Below, piece by piece: positions 16,563-19,532 of a stretch of 20,230 bases of DNA. The notes beneath the pieces are model-generated. The model saw nothing but the letters and a program-made list of their open reading frames with translations. It ran no database searches and was not told the origin of the DNA. The DNA comes from a virus: the IMG/VR virus record IMGVR_UViG_3300035184_000106, positions 1-20,230 of that record; one strand, 5' to 3'. The first letter of the stretch is position 1. Every line of letters begins with the position of its first letter. Made by a program: the position numbers and the translations under genes.

Positions 16563-16604
16563 ATAACCTGAAGGTCGTAGGTTCAAATCCTACTCCCGCA
16601 ACCA
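16563..16604 (+). other. attP: attP core: 3' half of a tRNA-fMet gene
   Basis: The 42 nt begin with ATAACCTGAAGG and run through the T-arm and loop (GTAGGTTCAAATCCTAC) to TCCCGCAACCA. This is the 3' half of bacterial initiator tRNA from inside the anticodon loop to the CCA end. The 5' half is absent and the bases before it diverge (CCCTAT instead of CTCAT), so this is not a working tRNA. Phage integrases commonly use a tRNA 3' end as the crossover site, restoring the host gene on integration. It lies 1.2 kb from the integrase with phage genes on both sides, so it is attP rather than an attL/attR end. The host target would be tRNA-fMet(CAT). Confidence 0.85.
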
Positions 16605-17784: not shown

Positions 17785-17827
17785 TACTTGTTCCTTTCAC
17801 GCATTACTTATTAGCTTCACGCATTAC
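17777..17827 (-). repeat. Three direct repeats of GTAATGCGTGA spaced exactly 20 bp
   Basis: Copies of the 11-mer occupy 17827-17817, 17807-17797 and 17787-17777 on the - strand. The first contains the integrase stop codon, the last the start codon of the 50-aa gene. The first two 20-bp units agree at 16 of 20 positions. Each of these two copies opens a 6-codon frame (MREANK, MRERNK) ending in TAA that overlaps the next ATG as TAATG. Confidence 0.85.
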
Positions 17828-18908
17828 CCCAGCGCTTTTGCATCCCACGGGCTGCAGTTTTTCGTGTGGGGTTGACGTATATCTCAAGCATCTGACGGGA
17901 AGTGTGGCCAGTGACCGCAGCAATCTCGTCCTCAGTACATCCAGCTTGACCCATCTCGGTGGCCCCACTGCGTCTAAGATCCCTGATTTGTAGATCTGAA
18001 CTTAGTTTGGCTTTGGTTCGCACGAGTTGAGCAATCTTGGCATACATCCTCATATCGTATGGTCTGCCAGTAGCCTCGTAGTTAATGATGAAGTCATCAT
18101 CATCGCCTCGTGCAATATCAGCAAACCGTTTACTGAGGCATGGGGATAATACTAGATCCATAGGAGTTTGGGTCTTCTCCTGATTGAACTTAAATGCTTC
18201 ACCATCGAAGTTGCCCCACAACAGCTTGCGCATGTCACCGGGCCGCTGGCACATATCATAGCAAAGCAGAGCCAATGTACCGACAGAATGGTATCCCATC
18301 TTATCTGCCATAGACACAAAAGCATCTACATCATCAGGTAACCATCTTATGCGCCGTATGGTGAGCTTCTTTAGGCCCATCTGTTGAAAGGGATTGGATG
18401 CACCGTCACCTAAGACGCCACGGCGTCCAACAAACCATATCCTACGCAGCACCTTGACCACGCTATTGGCCCGGTGGTCGCTCTTCTCATTCTTAATGGT
18501 AAGAAACAGGTCGTCTGCTGTCTTGGCATTCACACTTTTAATTAGCATGCGGCCAAAAGGGATATTAGACTGACCAATCCGTAGCTCTGATGCTGTTTTG
18601 TACAAGAAACGATATGTTCTCTTGCTGTTTTCAGACAGGCTCTTGAACGCATCACGGCTGGTGTAGAATTGGAACAGTGAATCAACAGTGTCCTCCTCTA
18701 TGTGCAGCTTTTTAGTAGGTCGCTGTGTGCGTTTGTAGTGATCAAAGGCTGCTTCTATCTGCAATGACCTATCTTTGGCCTCTTGGAAAGAATCATACTT
18801 CTCATAACCCACGTCTAAAGCCTTTCTAACGGCCTTGGATGGGTTGATTACCCAGATCATTCCTTGCTTCAGTTTGACCTGTTGCATGTATTTATAATGG
18901 CGCTTCAT
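17817..18908 (-). CDS. int: Tyrosine recombinase integrase (363 aa)
   Basis: Catalyses site-specific recombination between attP and a host attB. The catalytic set is present: Arg222 (QRPGDMRKL), Lys245 (EKTQT), the box Arg309-Asp-Leu-Arg312 (IRDLRRSGAT, where Arg replaces the usual His of HxxR), His335 (VTGHTS) and the nucleophile Tyr344 (LEIYV). Residues about 75-160 form the core-binding domain, and the basic N-terminal 70 residues are probably the arm-binding domain. A start at ATG 18908 with GAGG 8-9 nt upstream fits. The probable attP, a tRNA-fMet 3' half, lies 1.2 kb away, beyond thyX. The gene is followed by tandem repeats and the 50-aa gene. Integrase in a T7-like phage implies a temperate option. 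Confidence 0.95.
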   Translation of the reverse strand: MKRHYKYMQQVKLKQGMIWVINPSKAVRKALDVGYEKYDSFQEAKDRSLQIEAAFDHYKRTQRPTKKLHIEEDTVDSLFQFYTSRDAFKSLSENSKRTYRFLYKTASELRIGQSNIPFGRMLIKSVNAKTADDLFLTIKNEKSDHRANSVVKVLRRIWFVGRRGVLGDGASNPFQQMGLKKLTIRRIRWLPDDVDAFVSMADKMGYHSVGTLALLCYDMCQRPGDMRKLLWGNFDGEAFKFNQEKTQTPMDLVLSPCLSKRFADIARGDDDDFIINYEATGRPYDMRMYAKIAQLVRTKAKLSSDLQIRDLRRSGATEMGQAGCTEDEIAAVTGHTSRQMLEIYVNPTRKTAARGMQKRWGNA

Positions 18909-18953
18909 TCCTATACCTCACGTAGTTATCAGCCCTGACAACATGCATGGGAC

Positions 18954-18965
18954 ACTTAGCTAAGT
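18954..18965. promoter_or_regulatory. 12-bp palindrome ACTTAGCTAAGT upstream of integrase
   Basis: A perfect dyad 46 nt before the integrase start codon and just upstream of the + strand small RNA candidate, in AT-rich DNA. Its position between divergent transcription units suggests a repressor or excisionase operator. No promoter hexamers are clear enough to place it relative to a start site. Confidence 0.35.
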
Positions 18966-18983
18966 CAATATAAATAATAGTAG

Positions 18984-19106
18984 ACACCCAGAATGGTGTT
19001 TGGTAAGGTGTTAATACGGACTAACCTCCCTTAGTTCGTTCCTCCCTGTTGGTTTAAATCCAACGCCTCACTGGCCCCGCCCTTTAATTAAGGCGGGGTC
19101 TTTTTT
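18984..19106 (+). ncRNA. Candidate small RNA with anti-Shine-Dalgarno loop
   Basis: No protein frame of note is present, but the + strand folds into consecutive hairpins. A 5-bp stem at 18984-18999 comes first. Then a 9-bp stem (ACGGACTAA 19016-19024 with TTAGTTCGT 19031-19039, one G-T pair) presents CCTCCC (19025-19030) as its entire loop. A second CCTCCC follows unpaired (19041-19046), then a 5-bp stem with a 7-nt loop (19048-19064), and finally a strong terminator. CCUCCC is complementary to GGGAGG ribosome sites. Alphaproteobacterial cuckoo/CcsR RNAs have this style: anti-SD motifs in loops plus an intrinsic terminator. The 5' end is not defined; AATAAT near 18974-18979 could be a -10. 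Membership of that family is inference. Confidence 0.5.
19075..19106 (+). terminator. Strong intrinsic terminator (rightward)
   Basis: CCCCGCC (19075-19081) pairs with GGCGGGG (19092-19098) around an AT-rich loop, followed by TC and six T. No + strand protein gene ends here, which is why a non-coding transcript is proposed. Confidence 0.85.
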
Positions 19107-19110
19107 CATA

Positions 19111-19133
19111 GAAAAAGGGGCCAAAAGGCCCCT
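19111..19133 (-). terminator. Intrinsic terminator (leftward) of the 60-aa gene
   Basis: On the - strand AGGGGCC (19133-19127), loop TTTT, GGCCCCT (19122-19116), then further T residues to 19112. It lies 32 nt beyond the leftward gene at 19166-19348 and faces the rightward terminator at 19075-19106, insulating the two units. Confidence 0.8.
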
Positions 19134-19142
19134 AAAACTAGA

Positions 19143-19156
19143 ATTACTGACACGTC
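19143..19156. repeat. Direct repeat copy 1, ATTACTGACACGTC
   Basis: Identical 14-mer to 19396-19409, with similarity continuing on both sides. This copy lies just after the stop codon of the 60-aa gene; the other covers its promoter, so the pair brackets the gene. Confidence 0.75.
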
Positions 19157-19165
19157 GATGTATTA

Positions 19166-19348
19166 CTATTTTATGTAAGCTATAGTTTTAAATCCGTTGT
19201 CGTGACCATCATCAGGGTCGGTTCTTACGGTAAACATCTCACCAGTGTCCATCTGGCACACATAAATTGGCTTTGTTTGATCTTCGTACAAACTTGCATC
19301 AAGTAGAGCATTGCCCAACTCTTGTGCTTCTAACTTTGTTAGTAACAT
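19166..19348 (-). CDS. Small hypothetical protein with its own promoter (60 aa)
   Basis: The frame is open to an ATG at 19381, but AGGAGA lies 6 nt before the ATG at 19348 while the upstream ATG has no ribosome site, so 19348 is chosen. The protein starts MLLTKLEAQELGNALLDASL, an amphipathic helix, followed by a beta-rich part (PIYVCQMDTGEMFTVRTD and KTIAYIK). I do not recognise it. The composition (acidic, no helix-turn-helix) does not support a repressor. It is a monocistronic unit with a promoter at 19383-19411 and terminator at 19111-19133, divergent from the + strand genes starting at 19639, which suggests a regulatory or very early product. Confidence 0.7.
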   Translation of the reverse strand: MLLTKLEAQELGNALLDASLYEDQTKPIYVCQMDTGEMFTVRTDPDDGHDNGFKTIAYIK

Positions 19349-19382
19349 TACTTCTCCTGATGATCCTGTTGCTTGTATCATT

Positions 19383-19411
19383 TTGATAAAATAGTATTAC
19401 TGACACGTCAA
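19383..19411 (-). promoter_or_regulatory. Promoter of the 60-aa gene, overlapping a repeat
   Basis: On the - strand TTGACG (19411-19406), a 17-nt spacer and TATCAA (19388-19383) place a start site near 19376, ahead of the ATG at 19348. The -35 hexamer lies partly within TGACACGTCA (19401-19410), an inverted repeat (TGAC, 2 nt, GTCA), so a bound protein would block it. Confidence 0.55.
19396..19409. repeat. Direct repeat copy 2, ATTACTGACACGTC
   Basis: Second copy of the 14-mer at 19143-19156, 253 bp away, lying over the spacer and -35 of the leftward promoter. Confidence 0.75.
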
Positions 19412-19532
19412 GACATAACTACTACACACAAGCATTTTAACTAGAACACACATTGATCCAACATTATGCTGGCAGTATCGGCATCCCCCAACACCACATA
19501 GACGCATCTTGATTAACATATGCACAACACCT

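Follow-up and report, generated by a model that had tools for sequence, protein, structure and literature searches.

Genomic context of the small RNA locus

The stretch of DNA analysed here (the window) comprises the 20,230 nucleotides of the viral record IMGVR_UViG_3300035184_000106 and represents a fragment of an HMO-2011-type phage, a group whose traits have been described (PMC6918029). It encodes a family A DNA polymerase with two CXXCXGXG motifs, a helicase, a primase, ThyX, RNR and a tyrosine integrase. Between the integrase gene and a gene of 71 aa, both on the minus strand, lies a putative small RNA gene on the plus strand (Table 1). A Pfam search with the 71-aa protein returned no match. 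The integrase promoter is separated by 12 bp from the -35 box of the small RNA promoter, and a TTGAC-type integrase promoter is present at a comparable position in relatives. We also noticed an ATAAC box about 20 nt ahead of the integrase start codon (18924-18931), which is kept in most relatives. At the other end of the locus the small RNA and the 71-aa gene have terminators that point towards each other, and comparable facing hairpins are visible in relatives. Direct copies of ATTACTGACACGTC lie on either side of the 71-aa gene (19135-19168 and 19388-19421, 79% identity over 34 nt), and a related motif is found 3' of the same gene in relatives; these copies are perhaps a protein-binding site.

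A 38-nt copy of the 3' end of tRNA-Met (CCTGAAGGTCGTAGGTTCAAATCCTACTCCCGCAACCA) is located at 16567-16604. The identical sequence is present upstream of the primase gene of CRP-3, a phage that integrates into tRNA-Met (PMC6918029). This segment is likely the attP site, at a distance of about 2.3 kb from the integrase start.

Table 1. Positions of the features at the small RNA locus (window coordinates)
Feature	Position	Strand	Evidence or remark
Tyrosine integrase gene (PF00589)	17817..18908	-	ORF and Pfam match
Integrase promoter, divergent	18940..18968	-	-35 TTGACT 18968-18963, -10 CATGTT 18945-18940
-35 box TAGACA of the small RNA promoter	18981..18986	+	position matched in relatives
-10 box TAAGGT of the small RNA promoter	19004..19009	+	relatives compared
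Putative small RNA, three hairpins, the third a Rho-independent terminator	19016..19106	+	about 91 nt; start site predicted from promoter spacing
5' hairpin, 9 bp, loop CCUCCC (19025-19030)	19016..19039	+	7/9 pairs changed on both sides in relatives
Second CCUCCC, single-stranded	19041..19046	+	with the following UGU, motif common to CRP-212, CRP-3 and CRP-235
Second hairpin, 6 bp	19047..19065	+	fold and comparison
Intrinsic terminator and U tract	19073..19106	+	present in relatives with other sequence
Opposing terminator of the 71-aa gene	19116..19133	-	faces the small RNA terminator
71-aa gene, convergent with the small RNA	19166..19381	-	ORF

Extent, promoter and fold of the putative RNA

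A preliminary description of this DNA had proposed a phage small RNA of about 120 nt starting at 18984. Its structural elements were all recovered where it had placed them: a 9-bp stem (19016-19024/19031-19039) with CCTCCC as its loop, another CCTCCC left unpaired, one more stem, and a terminator (19073-19100) that runs into six T. No plus-strand ORF of at least 60 aa covers the RNA, which agrees with the proposed absence of a protein gene on this strand; a 13-codon ATG frame at 18993 is not retained in relatives, and a small protein was rejected. The proposed start, however, falls inside a sigma70-like promoter (TAGACA-17-TAAGGT), whose -10 box ends just upstream of the hairpin. Since the first 32 bases of the proposed interval are promoter, the RNA most likely extends from 19016 to 19106, and the ACACC/GGTGT fold at 18984-18999 is to be regarded as promoter DNA. 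In relatives a promoter is found at the same place with a spacing of 16-17 bp and other letters (-35 box TTGACN or TGGACA). Transcription and its start site are putative, as read from the sequence. The 91-nt RNA folds with -32.7 kcal/mol compared to -18.9 +/- 2.8 kcal/mol for shuffled sequences (z -5.0; 0/200 as good).

Conservation beside phage integrases

Relatives of the integrase were gathered from IMG/VR and GenBank phages, most of them with an identity of 40-50% or higher. In 69 of 79 loci (a hand count over loci with enough upstream sequence, some of them near-duplicates) the strand opposite the integrase carries CTCCC at a distance of 100-160 nt upstream of its start, where the genome-wide density of CTCCC leads to an expectation of about 2% of loci. 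The motif is usually found in a hairpin loop ahead of a terminator, and all three of the cultured phages CRP-212, CRP-3 and CRP-235 carry it. A descriptor demanding a CTCCC loop on a 6-bp stem and a terminator within 130 nt matched exactly once in each of 9 out of 11 phage sequences, always at the integrase-linked place, and once in 2.6 Mb of shuffled DNA. With five close sequences as the basis of a covariance model we obtained 42 matches over 372 kb; the top 31 are all located upstream of an integrase on the right strand, and the first off-target match has an E-value of 0.11. Derived from one clade, the model gives low scores to most of the distant members, and they are missed by annotation. 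Judged from these comparisons, the small RNA is a real family of RNA genes located beside phage integrases.

The invariant core of the family is CUCCC; CCUCC is not kept in some groups (UUCUCCC, AACUCCC). The first loop had been put forward as the key element, but the longest conserved sequence across relatives belongs to the second motif, CCUCCCUGU. A single exact-pattern scan for a host copy, run over 84,980 species genomes, returned one unrelated MAG (L030, Krumholzibacteriota), which we take as a chance match since the model finds nothing there.

Several architectures can be distinguished. The motif occupies both loop and linker in the window and in the CRP-212 type, only the linker between two hairpins in the CRP-3 type, and the loop in CRP-235 and most others. 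Some groups have added hairpins with further C-rich loops, and a few distant groups show CCCCUC or no motif. It looks from the predicted folds as if the number of anti-Shine-Dalgarno (anti-SD) loops varies between phages. Longer RNAs with C-rich extra hairpin loops (UUCCCC, UACCCC) were observed in L069, L074, L075, L041, L044 and L077-L091. The otherwise differing RNAs of L050, L069, L041 and L105 have TTGCTAGT in common, located in a hairpin before the terminator.

Covariation of the stems

Among 27 distinct representatives nearly every base of the motif stem differs, with pairing kept. Paired positions amount to 99.4% for a stem's own arms and to 45% for swapped arms, and none of 20000 permutations was as good. 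Whole-family stems were chosen as the best fit per sequence with arms anchored on the motif; under this procedure the minimum observed stem score is reached by random sequence in 10% of trials and by the real loci in 27/27. MAFFT, when applied to the whole family, placed the 5' stem wrongly; two other data sets therefore served for counting covariation, a model-based alignment of the close group and the motif-anchored arms of the whole family. The two-sided changes at seven of the nine pairs of the 5' stem come from 11 distinct close relatives; they make up 33 two-sided change cells, where shuffles give 7.9 and slid controls no more than 6. The compensatory changes that the preliminary description had suggested looking for in the 19016-19039 stem are therefore present in relatives, and the failure of stem and loop to be conserved, which it had named as a refutation, was examined with an outcome favouring the small RNA. 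Its central proposal, a phage small RNA displaying an anti-SD sequence, is strongly backed, since dozens of phages show the covarying stem, the conserved loop, the promoter and the terminator.

Comparison with known RNA families

At Rfam gathering thresholds no match was obtained for the window and 19 relatives, and the alpha-r14 model did not match the window even at E<=10. Membership in the cuckoo/CcsR group, as first suggested, was not borne out by a cuckoo-type covariance search, either at Rfam gathering thresholds or at E<=10. As no Rfam family matched, we regard the RNA as working like an alpha-r14/cuckoo RNA without being a member. These RNAs of Alphaproteobacteria (NfeR1, CcsR) likewise combine freely changing stems with a conserved anti-SD loop motif, UCCUCCC being common to both (PMC10746234, PMC3927594), and the phage RNA presents such a loop (CUCCC) on hypervariable stems. 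NfeR1 is transcribed from a sigma70 promoter of its own and acts as a repressor that masks ribosome sites (PMC10746234, PMC3927594). Unlike them, the phage gene adjoins an integrase and has the core CUCCC instead of three copies of CCUCCUCCC: alpha-r14/cuckoo RNAs have three (or four) hairpins each with this loop, whereas the window has one loop CCUCCC, one linker CCUCCC and no CCUCCUCCC. CcsR is characterized by co-transcription with DUF1127 and an RpoH promoter; here the neighbours are the integrase and the Pfam-unmatched 71-aa protein, no DUF1127 gene was found beside the small RNA, and its promoter is sigma70-like, not RpoH.

The anti-hemB RNA of Burkholderia (RF02837) is alike in having a 5' hairpin with loop CUCCUCCCUG, a second stem and a terminator. 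Its score to the window of 20.3 bits lies below the gathering score of 49.5, and its 5' stem is unaligned in the match, so that the window RNA falls outside this family. LhrC of Listeria and the UCCC-type RNAs of Gram-positive bacteria (RNAIII, RsaE) similarly carry UCCC in a loop and a single-stranded linker, and the UCCC of LhrC-type RNAs recognizes GGGAG ahead of the start codon (PMC4132741). They differ from the phage RNA in being chromosomal, stress-induced and non-phage, with unrelated sequence and host. The features of trans-acting antisense small RNAs, namely an own promoter, a structured body, an accessible seed and an intrinsic terminator, are all seen at the locus. Our search of open-access papers yielded no account of such an RNA in HMO-2011-type phages.

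Predicted mode of action and candidate targets

We consider it probable that the RNA acts as an antisense RNA in trans, its CUCCC covering GGGAG Shine-Dalgarno sites and thereby repressing selected mRNAs. Transcribed back to back with the integrase gene, the small RNA gene would yield an RNA of 75-155 nt (91 nt here) that exposes CUCCC in a hairpin loop, in a single-stranded linker or in both. Antisense RNAs first touch their partners through loops and linkers, and CUCCC is the complement of GGGAG. Pairing with the GGGAG of Shine-Dalgarno (SD) sequences, predicted as are the targets, would block ribosome loading and repress the mRNAs in trans.

For 27 gene families in up to 11 sequences, we computed the pairing of translation starts with the motif region of the same phage. 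The start of the putative tail-fibre gene was the best-paired of the 27 families over 10 genomes (mean z -1.83), followed by integrase (-0.94) and helicase (-0.83); these three may be the phage targets, in this order. The tail-fibre start pairs 4.0 kcal/mol better than predicted from its pairing with the 16S anti-SD, a pairing reached by 0/300 shuffled loops. Its leader contains CAGGGAGA or CAGGGAAA in all ten sequences; the tail-fibre gene of the window phage lies outside the window. Pairing falls to 4-5 bp where loop or SD differs, as with the tail-fibre SD GGGAAA of the L055 group and the loop CUCCCGC of L083/L088, and loop and SD are therefore not clearly coevolving. The integrase SD as the partner of the loop was rejected, being second best only and not clearly coevolving either.

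GGGAG was present in 9/10 carriers of the small RNA and in 1/9 of the non-carriers looked at, a comparison made between related genomes, in several of which the search for the RNA covered the surroundings of the integrase. In CRP-738 and G020, where the RNA was not found, other SD codons encode the same residues. G023 has kept GGGAG with no small RNA beside its integrase, which breaks a strict link of the RNA with GGGAG in the tail-fibre leader. The GGGAG site also serves the ribosome and is overlapped by the last codons of the upstream gene. Taking the carrier pattern and G023 together, general blocking of GGGAG sites is the best reading, and we infer that the tail fibre is the best named candidate target, one that has counter-examples. 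Silencing of a tail-fibre or replication mRNA would fit early infection, lysogeny or the control of superinfection, and host mRNAs may also be targets.

NfeR1 (PMC10746234) and LhrC, which binds GGGAG (PMC4132741), are precedents for the predicted mode of action. Phage RNAs acting on phage genes have precedents as well. According to the summary given in a review (PMC12197685), STnc6030 of prophage BTP1 is thought to silence the phage's own tailspike (receptor-binding) gene and is linked to superinfection exclusion; it differs in being cis-antisense to that gene instead of acting through a short loop in trans. The c4 RNA of P1/P7 and the sar RNA of P22 block translation initiation of phage mRNA (PMC12197685), but their target is the antirepressor gene and not GGGAG sites.

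Alternative functions

The RNA might instead be directed at the host, silencing host mRNAs or mimicking or titrating CcsR/cuckoo-type anti-SD RNAs, with phage pairing incidental. The alpha-r14 motif CCUCCUCCC includes the loop sequence UCCUCCC, host RNAs of the alpha-r14 type exist in related bacteria (PMC10746234, PMC10253847) and the phage target pairing is not clearly coevolving. A faithful mimic would not be expected to lose CCUCC, however, as some groups with CUCCC have done, and we judge this function unlikely. Compared with the titration of a host regulator raised in the preliminary description, direct covering of GGGAG sites is the simpler assumption. Still less probable is a general anti-SD decoy that lowers the translation of many mRNAs by competition with 16S rRNA. 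The CCUCC of most loops equals the 16S anti-SD core, and the energies of duplexes formed with the loops are correlated with those formed with the 16S tail (r 0.62), but the invariant core is CUCCC and the bulk of SD sequences could hardly be titrated by one small RNA.

Conservation of a single-stranded motif on variable stems is also a property of protein-sequestering RNAs, e.g. CsrA sponges, so that the C-rich loops could capture a host or phage RNA-binding protein. The motif here is CUCCC and not GGA, we know of no RNA-binding protein for it, and in CRP-3 it lies in a linker with no loop to present it; this makes protein capture quite improbable. An element that works as DNA or on the minus strand, whether an attachment site, a tRNA remnant or an integrase leader containing GGGAGG hairpins, would fit the position next to the integrase and the resemblance of 19047-19065 to a T arm. 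It can practically be discounted, given that promoter and terminator are in plus orientation, the likely attP with the tRNA-Met 3' end lies elsewhere, neither a tRNA fold (ARAGORN) nor a host tRNA 3' end is present, and the T-arm sequence is not conserved.

Implications for HMO-2011-type phages

Blocking of GGGAG sites in trans is thus our preferred reading. Its farthest-reaching form, a widespread, fast-evolving, integrase-linked RNA family whose CUCCC loop acts in trans to silence translation of the tail-fibre gene of the same phage (and of early genes), would place the control of infection timing, lysogeny or superinfection at the RNA level, which is undescribed in marine HMO-2011-type phages; we offer it tentatively and doubt that it holds in full. 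In the ocean, HMO-2011-type phages are reported to be dominant and to have a broad distribution (PMC9038755); we found no published work on cycle control in their temperate members. The small RNA provides a concrete candidate regulator for these temperate phages, and since CRP-212, CRP-3 and CRP-235 carry it on one cultured host it is testable at once. Our results suggest that phages, too, make use of the anti-SD design with conserved loops on variable stems that is known from bacteria.
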